Positions 5,828 to 21,918 of a stretch of 64,000 bases of DNA are shown here, piece after piece. Under the pieces are notes generated by a model, which searched no databases, was not told the origin of the DNA, and saw nothing but the letters and a program-made list of their open reading frames with translations. The stretch is taken from positions 117,584-181,583 of the forward strand of contig NTKT01000003.1 in the NCBI GenBank assembly GCA_002457055.1, written 5' to 3'. The stretch is from Rhodobacteraceae bacterium MED-G08 (GTDB lineage: Bacteria; Pseudomonadota; Alphaproteobacteria; Rhodobacterales; Rhodobacteraceae). Position 1 is the stretch's first letter, and every line of letters starts with the position of its first letter. A program made the translations under genes and the position numbers.

Positions 5828-6920
5828 TGGTTTCAAAACCCTTCGATTTCACTATTAAATCCGGTCGGACTACACCTCCAACGGCAGGAATCTCTCGACC
5901 CTTACCAATATGCTTGGTTAGAGCATCGTATCTTCCACCTGTAGCTATTGGAGGAAGATCAGCGTAGCTATCCGAGTAAAAGCCAAAAACAAATCCATCG
6001 TAATATTCCATAGAAGTCCTACCGTAGCTTGCCTCAAAATCAATTGAAGATAGATTAACATTAGCATGATCCAGGGCTGTCAGTCGTTTTTCAAATTTTT
6101 CGATAGCACTCTGAAGAGCAGGCATATCAGGTAATAGATTTTTAAGCTCAGTTAATGCTTGAGGACATTTGTCGCCAATATTAAGCAATGAATTTATTAA
6201 CCCCAACTCTGTCTTAGAAATTGGAGATACTTTACTATCTTGCCGTAAACTTTCAATACGCTCAATTATCTCAGACTTGCTTCTTAAGCCAATTTCTTTA
6301 GCTTGGTTCTCAAAACTTTTTTCTTCGTCAAAACTATCAAATCGTTTAGTTGATAAGCTCACTTCATCCGTAAATTTTTCTAAAATAGTTTTAAATCTTT
6401 GAGGGCGCCATATATGGCGCAACAGAGATTTTTTGCGTCTATCGGTCGTTTTCAAACCAGATACAGCAGCCATTAGTATACCAATATCACCGGTAGCAAC
6501 TTTGAGAGGCAAATCGCTCAAAGCATTTTTTATTCTACAAAAAGCATCCGCATCAGATTGGATCACGTCTGTGCGATCGAAAATCTCATAACCTACCTGC
6601 AAATATTCACTCGCTCGATCAGAGTTTTTTTCCTGCCGTCGAAATACCTTACCACAGTAAGCATAACGGGCAGTTTCATTCCCTGATAAATCGTTCATGT
6701 GGGCTTTTACAATAGGTACTGTAAAATCAGGCCGCAACATCATCTCACCATTAAAGGGATCACTTGTAACATACGCACGTGCCCGGATATCCTCACCATA
6801 TAAATCCAGCAAAGTATCGGCCTGCTGCAAAATAGTCGGCTGTACTATTTTTGCTCCTGAATTCGAAAATAACCGTAAAATCCGGTCTGCTTCAATTTCT
6901 ATCTGTTTCTGCTCATTCAC
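5820..6920 (-). CDS. hisZ: ATP phosphoribosyltransferase regulatory subunit
   Basis: A class II tRNA-synthetase-like paralogue of HisRS that does not charge tRNA but carries the regulatory role for short HisG. Visible class II motifs are [14 protein letters not shown], a motif-2-like YCGKVFRRQ and TGGRYDAL near the C terminus. The frame runs open to 7004, but that would overlap hisS by 88 bp. The GTG at 6920 makes a GTGA overlap with the hisS stop and gives 366 residues beginning [15 protein letters not shown], the family-like N terminus. I therefore take GTG as the start. Order is hisS-hisZ-hisG in one tight run on the minus strand. Confidence 0.93.
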
Positions 6921-8392
6921 TTTTTCAAAGCTTTCAGCATCTCTTGCACCGTAGAAACCATTTCGTTTCTGGGCACAGTAAATTGACTTGGCCTTTCCTT
7001 CCATTCTTCCAAGGTGGCGCTTTTGGCAAGTTGCGTGCCCAATATTAAGTCTTTAATTTGGATAAGGCCCTTATCTCTTTCCTCACTGCCCTCTATGATG
7101 GCCAGGGGTGAACGCCGTTTGTCAGCATACTTCAATTGGTTGCCAAAATTCTTCGGGTTTCCGAAATACATTTCTGCACGAATACCAGCAGACCTTAATT
7201 CTGACACGATACGTATGTAATCATTGAGCCTTTCTCGATCCATAACCGTTACAACAACTGGCCCAATTGTATCAATTCTAGATCCTGCTTTATCCCGCAG
7301 TGCAGCCATAAGTCTATCTACCCCAATAGAAACGCCAGTCGCTGGAATAGTTTGCCCAGTGAAGCGTTTAACTAAGTCATCGTATCGCCCTCCACCTGCA
7401 ACAGAGCCAAATTGTCTTTTTCTTCCCTTTTTGTCATATATCTCGAATGTTAACTCTGCCTCAAATACCGGACCCGTATAATACTCCAAACCTCTTACAA
7501 CAGATGGGTCCAGCTGAACCCGTTTAGAGGTATAATCGCCTACAGTTAGAAATTCGGCCATCATATCCAATTCTGATATACCCTCGAGACCAGTACTCGA
7601 ATTCCCAACCACGTCCCGTAAATTCAAAAGTGTTTTTTCATTTGTGTCACCCTTTGCAGTAAGAAATGCAACAACAGGCGCAGCTTGATCTTTTGACAGC
7701 CCGACACCATCAATATATGCCCCTGAAGCATCCAATCTACCAGAGCCTAAAAGTTCTTCTACTCCCTGAACGCCAACCTTATCAAATTTATCAATAACCC
7801 TTAACACTGCAAGGCGCTCTGCCTGATTTTCAAGCCCGATCATTTCCAAGACACCATTAAGAATTTTTCGATTATTTATCCGCACCATATAATCGCCAAA
7901 AGGTATCCCGACCTCTTCTAAGGCATCTGCCAACATTGCACAAACTTCAGCATCCGCCGATACATTTGAAGCTCCAATTGTATCTGCATCACATTGATAG
8001 AACTGTCTAAAACGCCCCGGCCCTGGTTTTTCATTCCTCCAAACAGGTCCCATTGCATACCTACGATACGGGTTGGGTAATTCATTTCTGTATTGGGCAT
8101 AAACACGAGCAAGAGGAGCAGTTAAGTCATAACGTAACGCGAGCCATGAATTGTCATCTTCTTGCCACGCAAATACTCCGTCATTTGGTCGATCGACATC
8201 TGGTAAAAACTTCCCCAGCGCGTCAACGTTTTCAACTGCTGATGTTTCCAGTGCATCAAAGCCGTGATGATGGTAGACTCGCGCAACCTGCTGCAGCATC
8301 TCGTTTCTTTCAGAAACTTCTTGATCAAAATAGTCACGAAAACCTTTAGGAGTTTCGGCCTTTGGTCGTGATTGTTTTTTATCCTTCGCCAT
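6917..8392 (-). CDS. hisS: Histidyl-tRNA synthetase
   Basis: Charges tRNA-His. The protein is 491 residues from ATG 8392, beginning [20 protein letters not shown]; the frame extends 31 codons further but that part has no family resemblance. Class II motifs are seen: [15 protein letters not shown] (motif 2 region), [20 protein letters not shown], the histidine-specific [13 protein letters not shown], and [12 protein letters not shown] with GVSIGVDRL (motif 3). The C-terminal anticodon-binding domain follows. The length and the PKGFRDYF opening resemble the longer, alphaproteobacterial form. It shares its stop with the hisZ start, placing tRNA charging in the same transcript as two histidine biosynthetic subunits. 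Confidence 0.95.
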
Positions 8393-20382: not shown

Positions 20383-21918
20383 ATGAACGTAAAGACACCA
20401 TTTCCTGTTAAGCTAGAAGCGGGTTCAGATTACTTCTGGTGCAGCTGCGGTCAGAGTAAGCATCAACCATTTTGTGATGGAAGCCACAAAGGTACTCAAC
20501 ACAGTCCAAGAAAATTTACTGCTCAAAAAACAGAGACTGCATACCTGTGCGGCTGTAAAAAAACCTCAAACAGTCCGTTCTGCGACGGCACCCATAACCA
20601 TTTGGAATTGCAAACGGAAGAGATAACATTCACTGCCTTGGTGCAGCCTGATAACCGAGAAATTGACATTACTGAAGAAGAGTCAATTCTTCTGGCTTCT
20701 TTAAGAAATAATATAGCCCATCTAAGTGCGTGTGGTGGTACAGGGAAGTGCTCTACTTGTCGTGTTGAAATTTTAGACGGCCTAGAAAATTGTCATCCAA
20801 GAAGTGAACTAGAGGAAAAGCTTGCCCAAAAGCTTTCATTTCCACCTAACATTAGGTTGGGATGTCAAACAAAATTGAGCGGCAATGTGTCCTTTCGCAG
20901 GCTGCTTTTAGACAAAAGAGATGCTGATCTTAACAATCAAATAACCGAAAAAAAATTAGAGTCTGTGGGAACCATACGGAACCTAACAATACTTTTTTGT
21001 GACATAAAAGGCTTTACCCCATTTGCAGCGTCTTTATCCGCATACGATGTCATATTTATCCTGAACAGATATTTTTCAATAATGAGGGAAGTCATTATAC
21101 GCCACGGAGGCGAAGTTAATAACTACATTGGCGACGCTATCTTGGCAATCTTTGGCCTCAAAGAGTCGAGACAACAATCTTTGCGAGCAGTGAGCGCGAG
21201 CGTTGAAATGTTGAAGGAAATGGATCAGTTCAAATCATACCTAAAACAAGCTTACGGACGAGATTTCGATATAAGAGTTGGAGTACATTACGGAGAGGTT
21301 ATTTCCGGATCTGTTGGAATTGGTGAGGATAGAAAAGTTACCGTTATTGGCGACGCAGTTAATATTGCAAGCAGAATTGAAGCCATTAACAAGGAAGCCG
21401 GTACCAGACTACTTATTTCTGAAACGGTATATGATCAAATTAAAGAAAAAGTCTCGGTTAAAAATTATCTCAGATTGAAACTACGGGGAACCAGTAACTT
21501 GATTACTTTGTACGAAGTAAGCGACGTAAACAGTAGTGCATTGGAGTTAAATGTTACCGAAGTCGAAAGAAATATAGATGGCAAAAAGTGGTTCCGAACC
21601 TTACCTATTGAGGAGTTGAATTTGGGTGAGAAGAAAAAGTTTAAACTTAAGGAAAAAGAAATTCTTTTGATCAACGAAGGCGAAATTTATGCCATTGAAA
21701 ATCTTTGTCCTCACATGGACTTACCATTAGATATCGGACAAATAACCGAAAAAGCTACAATATTGTGCCCGTATCACAAAAGTGAGTTTTGCTTTAAGTC
21801 GGGCGAGGTTAAAAAATGGGTTGGCAAAAGACCTCAAGAACATCAAGATGAATGCAAACCTCTGAATACTATAAGCGTTGACACGGACGAAGATTACATT
21901 TGGGTTACAGACGACTAG
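20383..21918 (+). CDS. Multi-[2Fe-2S] nucleotide cyclase: CDGSH-CDGSH-ferredoxin-class III cyclase-Rieske fusion
   Basis: 511 residues from ATG 20383 (a TTG lies just before), cytosolic with no membrane segment. Domains in order: CDGSH cluster 1 (Cys20, Cys22, Cys31, His35); CDGSH cluster 2 (Cys56, Cys58, Cys67, His71), together like CISD3; plant-type [2Fe-2S] ferredoxin at about 80-175 (Cys117, Cys123, Cys126, Cys161); class III cyclase at about 197-380 with metal Asp207 (FCDIKGFT) and Asp251 (YIGDAILAIFG), Thr320, Asn327 and Arg331 (VIGDAVNIASR); Rieske domain at about 405-505 (Cys442-x-His444, Cys462-x2-His465). All cluster ligands and both metal aspartates are intact. The usual substrate-selecting Lys is Asn247, so ATP versus GTP is unsettled. 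Ferredoxin-cyclase fusions are known; I do not know of this five-part one. A redox or cluster-status-gated cAMP/cGMP signal is inferred. Confidence 0.95.
   Translation: MNVKTPFPVKLEAGSDYFWCSCGQSKHQPFCDGSHKGTQHSPRKFTAQKTETAYLCGCKKTSNSPFCDGTHNHLELQTEEITFTALVQPDNREIDITEEESILLASLRNNIAHLSACGGTGKCSTCRVEILDGLENCHPRSELEEKLAQKLSFPPNIRLGCQTKLSGNVSFRRLLLDKRDADLNNQITEKKLESVGTIRNLTILFCDIKGFTPFAASLSAYDVIFILNRYFSIMREVIIRHGGEVNNYIGDAILAIFGLKESRQQSLRAVSASVEMLKEMDQFKSYLKQAYGRDFDIRVGVHYGEVISGSVGIGEDRKVTVIGDAVNIASRIEAINKEAGTRLLISETVYDQIKEKVSVKNYLRLKLRGTSNLITLYEVSDVNSSALELNVTEVERNIDGKKWFRTLPIEELNLGEKKKFKLKEKEILLINEGEIYAIENLCPHMDLPLDIGQITEKATILCPYHKSEFCFKSGEVKKWVGKRPQEHQDECKPLNTISVDTDEDYIWVTDD

Follow-up and report, generated by a model that had tools for sequence, protein, structure and literature searches.

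The gene analysed here lies at positions 20383..21918 on the plus strand of the window, the whole 64,000-nucleotide stretch of DNA taken from contig NTKT01000003.1 of Rhodobacteraceae bacterium MED-G08. Translation of this frame gave 511 residues followed by the stop, which is included in the coordinates, with 0 internal stops; the minus strand of the same interval contained many stops. Full-length homologues of the predicted protein exist. Four Pfam families were found above their curated cut-offs, in the order (CDGSH)2-Fer2-class III cyclase-Rieske and all on the plus strand. The zf-CDGSH profile (PF09360) reached 59.5 bits against a cut-off of 29.5 over two stretches, which hold a site at residues 20-35 (20440..20487; Cys20, Cys22, Cys31 and His35) and a site at residues 56-71 (20548..20595; Cys56, Cys58, Cys67 and His71). 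Both sites fit C-x-C-x8-C-x3-H, with three Cys and one His, and both matched PDB 3tbn. The Fer2 ferredoxin domain (PF00111; 40.9 bits, cut-off 21) extends over residues 87-165 (20641..20877) and has four cluster ligands, Cys117, Cys123, Cys126 and Cys161. After a linker of 27 codons (residues 171-197; 20893..20973), the class III nucleotide cyclase core occupies residues 198-375 (20974..21507). The Guanylate_cyc profile (PF00211) scored 90.9 bits there (cut-off 21.9), and the metal-binding Asp207 and Asp251 and the transition-state pair Asn327 and Arg331 are present. The Rieske domain (PF00355; 59.9 bits, cut-off 20.3) lies at residues 403-480 (21589..21822), with the C-x-H and C-x2-H pairs formed by Cys442, His444, Cys462 and His465. 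A 19-residue scan found no hydrophobic segment in the window protein. These results indicate that the protein carries putative [2Fe-2S] sites of three kinds, CDGSH, Fer2 and Rieske. The preliminary description had read two CDGSH sites, a ferredoxin, a cyclase and a Rieske motif in one chain; the four families in one frame bear this out, and every ligand and catalytic residue number that it gave proved correct by alignment. It had overlooked Asn247 at the substrate Lys position, the basic residue at 318 and the CyaC-type Fer2-cyclase core, which are treated below.

Among solved chains, matches were obtained with the double-CDGSH protein 3tbn (E 7.3e-25 over residues 4-73), CISD3 (6avj; E 1.2e-19), the guanylyl cyclase Cya2 (2w01) and the adenylyl cyclase CyaB (3r5g). 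The rows of the fold search mostly covered residues 192-384. Two AlphaFold models had mean pLDDT values of 72.8 and 80.6 and pTM values of 0.45 and 0.49, and in the latter model pLDDT was below 50 in the ferredoxin cluster loop (residues 115-124) and in part of the linker (residues 181-195). These models support folded domains, not a particular packing of the domains.

We then compared the protein with its relatives in two alignments. The query and the best 120 of 1,839 protein hits formed a 121-row set, and a second protein search contributed a 60-row set, made of the new rows among the best 120 of 3,246 protein hits. The matches among the best 120 of 1,839 were mostly full length, with identity down to ~60% and the same Pfam set. 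By pattern, the full motif set (two or four CDGSH sites, Fer2 and Rieske) was present in 111 of the 121 rows, the rest being mostly fragments. Asp207, Asp251, Asn327 and Arg331 were invariant in both sets (121/121 and 60/60). Each Fe-S ligand was retained in 117-121 of the 121 rows (Fer2 Cys in 119-121, Rieske ligands in 117-118), and the misses consisted of gaps and of single swaps, Cys31 to Ser, Cys126 to Ser, Cys442 to Val and His465 to Asn. Rough pN/pS values, with synonymous sites near saturation, were calculated against six relatives of 73-87% identity (nine loci less L026, L140 and L141) and came to 0.14-0.29 for CDGSH, 0.10-0.23 for Fer2, 0.08-0.14 for the cyclase and 0.06-0.24 for Rieske. 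The linker between Fer2 and the cyclase had the lowest values of the stretches compared (0.03-0.12). Every domain and this linker thus look constrained, and none looks relaxed. These alignments indicate that (CDGSH)2-Fer2-cyclase-Rieske is a real protein family.

An artefact or broken fusion was ruled out, since the same order recurs across many separate contigs and genomes and no domain looks decayed; this agrees with the earlier view that a broken fusion was unlikely. A phage or viral origin was also rejected, as 12 stretches of viral contigs were matched in one scan and tblastn showed 0 of them to be relatives.

The occurrence of the family is rare and patchy. In the window's genus, 5 of 15 genomes (53-96% complete) had a full-length match, one of them in two pieces owing to a frameshift and a contig end. 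At L030 8001-9460, which has these same coordinates in G011:C32, there is a 98% identical copy with a frameshift, either genuine or an assembly error, ~480 bases from the contig end. Full-length matches were also found in 8 of 136 genomes in the order of a SAR116-titled genome (the titled genome among them, and one in two pieces; CDGSH motifs read in 6 of the 8), in 2 of 10 genomes in the order of a Rhodospirillaceae-titled lineage, in G865 and G821 of the window's family, and in a group with one Deltaproteobacteria-named record, in which the CDGSH pairs are doubled. The CDGSH-less form, Fer2-cyclase-Rieske, was found in 17 of the 136 SAR116-order genomes (in 15 of which both the Fer2 and the Rieske motifs were read), in MAGs named Paracoccaceae, and on plasmids of Rhizobium gallicum R602sp (checked with Pfam) and R. 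etli 8C-3. With this form as query, matches at E 1e-70 came from 6 of the 394 genomes of the family and from 5 of the 398 of the phylum, its own genome being included in both counts; three of the five phylum-level matches (G102, G1089 and G1063) aligned over the Fer2-cyclase part only. G865 has the CDGSH and the CDGSH-less form ~41 kb apart on one contig (L168 and L169), and integrase-like fragments, recognised by eye, lie immediately upstream of its CDGSH form.

In a close relative, G003, a 5'-end relic stands in place of the gene, at a site of locus L101 bounded by the permease at 7859 and a gene at 6386. Over residues 1-24 it matched by tblastn at 45.8%, with an E value of 3.4e-5 within the stretch. 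This relic, downstream of the permease, points to lineage-specific loss. Since only 5 of 15 same-genus genomes have the gene, it looks dispensable.

According to an excerpt of PMC10463352, CyaC is a ubiquinone-responsive cyclase that becomes active once quinones have oxidised it and in which a [2Fe-2S] cluster is indicated; the same excerpt gives the enzyme of S. meliloti a membrane anchor with two hemes. A cluster of 6TM-ferredoxin class IIIb adenylate cyclases is described in part of PMC4821796. We searched class-level genomes with the full window protein at E 1e-45 or better, and 71 of 385 matched, the window genome (G000) being counted. Apart from the full-length proteins of G000 and G294, the class-level matches spanned ~residues 69-404 at most, at 31-47% identity, and a gene annotated cyaC in S. 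meliloti Ak57 matched at 33.7%. In 32 long Fer2-cyclase loci that were fetched, the four Fer2 Cys were present in all 32 and the Asn/Arg pair in 31; the locus L015 has His replacing Asn327, and Gln at 247. Each of the 32 has 2-6 hydrophobic segments, compared to none in the window protein. The segments were placed before Fer2 in 26 of the 32, and for the other six the counts are for the whole frame. These 2-6 segments fit the 6TM-ferredoxin cluster in the described part of PMC4821796. As judged from the sequences, the Fer2-cyclase core has a common origin with that of the CyaC type, which is membrane-bound and redox-regulated. The earlier remark that ferredoxin-cyclase fusions exist was therefore right and understated, because the window protein belongs to the known CyaC lineage.

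Trees of the Fer2-cyclase core were given midpoint roots and carry a long-branch warning. Membrane forms were split from soluble forms with a support of 100/100. In a 72-row tree, the CDGSH forms lay together on one side of a branch (98/99), and so did the CDGSH-less Rieske forms (100/99). In a wider tree of 43 rows, the CDGSH forms made one clade (100/100) placed among the CDGSH-less Rieske forms with modest support (93/78). The deeper branches of this tree, whose relative order is unsettled, were L058 and Hymenobacter L159, both without Rieske, and the rhizobial Rieske forms. Five deeper members (L157, L158, L172, L173 and L175) have an insertion in the Rieske domain between the two ligand pairs. 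The trees suggest a series from the membrane form to a soluble Fer2-cyclase, to which a Rieske domain and then a CDGSH pair may have been added, followed by CDGSH duplication. The simplest history suggested by the sequences is that the anchor was lost, then Rieske was gained, and then the CDGSH pair was gained.

The CDGSH pair is doubled in at least 49 proteins, and the identity of the pairs within one protein was measured in 8. The two pairs of one chain were 0.92-0.98 identical in P0013, P0031 and P0033, where they are 60-67% like the pair of the query, and 0.62-0.70 identical in P0042, P0049, P0055, P0072 and P0111. These identities and the places of the proteins in the tree suggest three separate duplications of the CDGSH pair; gene conversion is a possible cause as well.

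According to excerpts of PMC4215837 and PMC7384201, adenylyl cyclases read adenine with Lys and Asp/Thr, and guanylyl cyclases carry Glu at the first position and vary at the second. Neither pattern was found in the window protein. Asn247 (21121..21123) stands where adenylyl cyclases have Lys and guanylyl cyclases Glu, and Thr320 is present at the second position. The following counts are not of independent events, since some rows are near-duplicates (e.g. L171 and P0105) and a few are fragments that stop short of the Rieske domain. Asn at 247 was found in 121/121 and 60/60 rows and in 6 of 9 further Rieske-bearing proteins (L177 left out), together 187/190; residue 318, two before Thr320, was Lys or Arg in 189/189 readable rows, L171 being unreadable there. 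The other three at 247 are L172 and L173 (Lys) and L175 (Leu), all of which carry Rieske and Arg318. Residue 318, which is Lys in the window protein (21334..21336), is basic in none of the 32 membrane forms. In alignments, this site is Lys in Cya2 and Asp in CyaB, Spirulina CyaC and OaPAC. Eukaryotic guanylyl cyclases have Arg at the matching site. As reported in part of PMC5967339, the six-fold adenylyl mutant of rhodopsin guanylyl cyclase includes a change at the matching site 564, and altering the two classic sites is enough to swap specificity.

The soluble Hymenobacter relative has Asp247, Lys318 and Ala320 and is nearer to guanylyl cyclases. An engineered chain titled adenylate/guanylate cyclase (6fht) has Lys at both the 247 and 318 sites. 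Two members with Lys247, Arg318 and Thr320 indicate that a basic 318 does not by itself mean GTP. A strict rule that Asn247 came with the Rieske domain was rejected, as L172 and L173 (Lys) and L175 (Leu) break it despite a Rieske domain; these exceptions also weaken the notion that a basic 318 makes up for the charge of Lys247. Since the adenine-reading Lys is absent, the enzyme might be weak or dead.

The preliminary description had called for the neighbours of homologues to be inspected, and this revealed no partner gene common across lineages. In G294 and G424, by the ORF starts called here, the cyclase begins 3 nt past the stop of guaB, and its end lies 26 or 32 nt before guaA. The flanking genes were identified by NCBIfam as IMP dehydrogenase and GMP synthase; guaA of G424 is cut by the contig end and passes the model of the N-terminal domain. 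This guaB-cyclase-guaA layout was found in one genus, in 2 of 3 genomes, and the third, G423, gave no guaB match. In all 7 of the other genomes of G294's order whose guaB and guaA were read (L191-L197), another frame of 426-459 aa fills the guaB-guaA slot; two of these frames were tested, and both are RsmB/F rRNA methyltransferases. The cyclase thus replaces a resident gene of the operon. Two SAR116-order genomes, G427 and G535, have guaB and guaA adjacent, with ~70 nt between them. In the window genome, a protein with a Fer2-like start adjoins guaB (L190 3190-4440) and by eye resembles corrinoid-protein reactivators. Because the slot is filled by another gene in relatives, the guaB-guaA position says little about GTP. 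Such a ready-made slot lowered the guanylate-cyclase reading and moved the product from level slightly towards cAMP. Judged from the sequences, cAMP is slightly ahead of cGMP as the probable product. We regard it as doubtful that the protein is a soluble, multi-cluster, Fe-S-gated guanylate cyclase whose new base pocket (Asn247 and a basic 318) would make it a bacterial cGMP sensor joining GTP supply to redox or Fe-S state.

The gene is flanked in the window's genus by an ABC permease and housekeeping genes. At the loci read from the window's genus and the SAR116 order, no conserved operon partner or electron-donor gene common to the lineages was seen. In the SAR116 order, the surroundings of the CDGSH-less form are mostly the same and its neighbours are convergent or divergent, with L142 as an exception on one side; three loci of the CDGSH form have a same-strand gene 230-380 nt downstream. 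By eye, the CDGSH-less cyclase of L142-L156 mostly lies beside ABC transporter-like genes with a substrate-binding protein, and the Rieske-cyclase of R. etli 8C-3 (L158 2-5893) is preceded by SDR-, transporter- and hydrolase-like genes.

The window genome has four class III cyclases. It also encodes three cNMP-binding proteins with PF00027 (G000:C1:197022-197264, C3:10990-11211 and C4:50096-50350) of 172, 166 and 113 aa. These stand-alone proteins are possible effectors for the cyclic nucleotide. No CRP-type effector was found in the window genome, whose assembly is 86.6% complete, the three PF00027 proteins being judged too short for CRP.

Our preferred reading, with a rough probability of 0.62, is that the protein would work as a sensor in the cytosol, with the synthesis of a cyclic nucleotide, cAMP or cGMP, switched by the redox state or the loading of its Fe-S clusters. 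Class III adenylyl cyclases are homodimers according to an excerpt of PMC10463352, and the cyclase would work as a homodimer. The ferredoxin cluster, directly before the conserved linker, would be the direct switch and would act on the dimer by way of this linker. The Rieske and CDGSH domains may feed electrons to the ferredoxin, or report cluster supply, and would replace the heme-carrying anchor of CyaC. If the protein behaved like CyaC, its cyclase activity would rise on oxidation; this direction is a guess. The preliminary description had tied cyclase output to electron flow, oxygen or Fe-S supply; the homology of the Fer2-cyclase core to the redox-responsive CyaC type, as described in that excerpt, makes a redox link plausible by analogy.

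Cyclase output could instead be set by the occupancy of the CDGSH clusters and not by their oxidation state, as in a sensor of iron or cluster supply. CDGSH clusters are labile, and in this case they would be lost or handed on when the Fe-S supply falls. Such a role would suit a pair that was apparently the last domain gained and is doubled in at least 49 proteins, apparently by separate duplications. However, the sister proteins without CDGSH imply that these sites are dispensable for the core, and no isc/suf-like gene was recognised by eye adjacent to the gene at the loci read, so we consider a supply sensor unlikely. A catalytically silent fold, in which Asn247 destroys base recognition and the domain binds nucleotide as a switch for the Fe-S domains, would explain why the substrate Lys is Asn in every row of the two sets. 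Exactly these rows, however, keep the metal Asp and the Asn/Arg pair of the transition state, and the low pN/pS of the cyclase (0.08-0.14) likewise makes a silent fold improbable.

The domain pairing itself raises another explanation. Fer2 and Rieske form the electron path of ring-hydroxylating oxygenases, and the same pairing here might mean that the cyclase is constitutive and that the Fe-S domains serve another reaction, e.g. delivering electrons to an oxygenase. By eye, the R. etli 8C-3 relative lies ~300 nt after a dioxygenase and reductase-like run, and L027 has two Rieske-oxygenase-like genes downstream. Oxygenase-like neighbours were absent from the other loci read, though, and the Fer2-cyclase unit occurs without Rieske; an electron-transfer fusion of this kind is very improbable. 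The proposed switching of the cyclase by its Fe-S clusters in the cytosol is the reading that we retain.

The preliminary description knew of no protein with this domain order, and in the open-licence literature, subscription papers being outside the scope, we likewise found no published description joining CDGSH, cyclase, Rieske and ferredoxin, nor one of a CDGSH-type domain with a class 3 adenylate cyclase. Automatic database names already list these domains together. The quinone-wired membrane ferredoxin-cyclases are known; what is new is a soluble branch with CDGSH and Rieske domains. In this branch, a growing set of Fe-S domains takes the place of the heme anchor, and living intermediates are at hand: the Fer2-cyclase, then forms with Rieske, with CDGSH and with a second CDGSH pair. 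The family offers a model for how cyclases come under redox or Fe-S control and for how base specificity drifts, and the rhizobial relatives with complete plasmids make the system tractable. If the product were cGMP, the protein would be a redox-linked bacterial source of this messenger, and part of PMC3770947 calls the bacterial role of cGMP poorly understood.

The window protein resembles 3tbn and CISD3 in its two tandem CDGSH sites. Those are chains of 87 and 92 residues, whereas the CDGSH pair here is fused to a cyclase. Cya2 of Synechocystis (2w01) was the best solved match by sequence and by Foldseek and shares Lys at 318; its base-reading positions are Glu and Gly, compared to Asn and Thr in the window protein, and its solved chain has no Fe-S domain. 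The C-x-H and C-x2-H motif of the Rieske domain is like that of the Rieske ferredoxins of oxygenases (PDB 8jng, NCBIfam HcaC). Unlike these, it lies behind a cyclase, and it is below the curated cut-off of every such Rieske model listed.

As in the CyaC type, Fer2 stands immediately before a homologous class III core in the window protein. The four Fer2 Cys and the metal Asp are kept, and the core is ~31-38% identical to the membrane-type matches listed. However, the window protein lacks the six-helix heme-binding membrane anchor of CyaC and has a CDGSH pair in front and a Rieske domain behind. Asn247 and Lys318 also differ from the membrane type, which has Lys (31/32, with one Gln) and a non-basic residue (32/32) at these sites. 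The window protein is the soluble end of the known CyaC lineage, a variant and not a separate kind.
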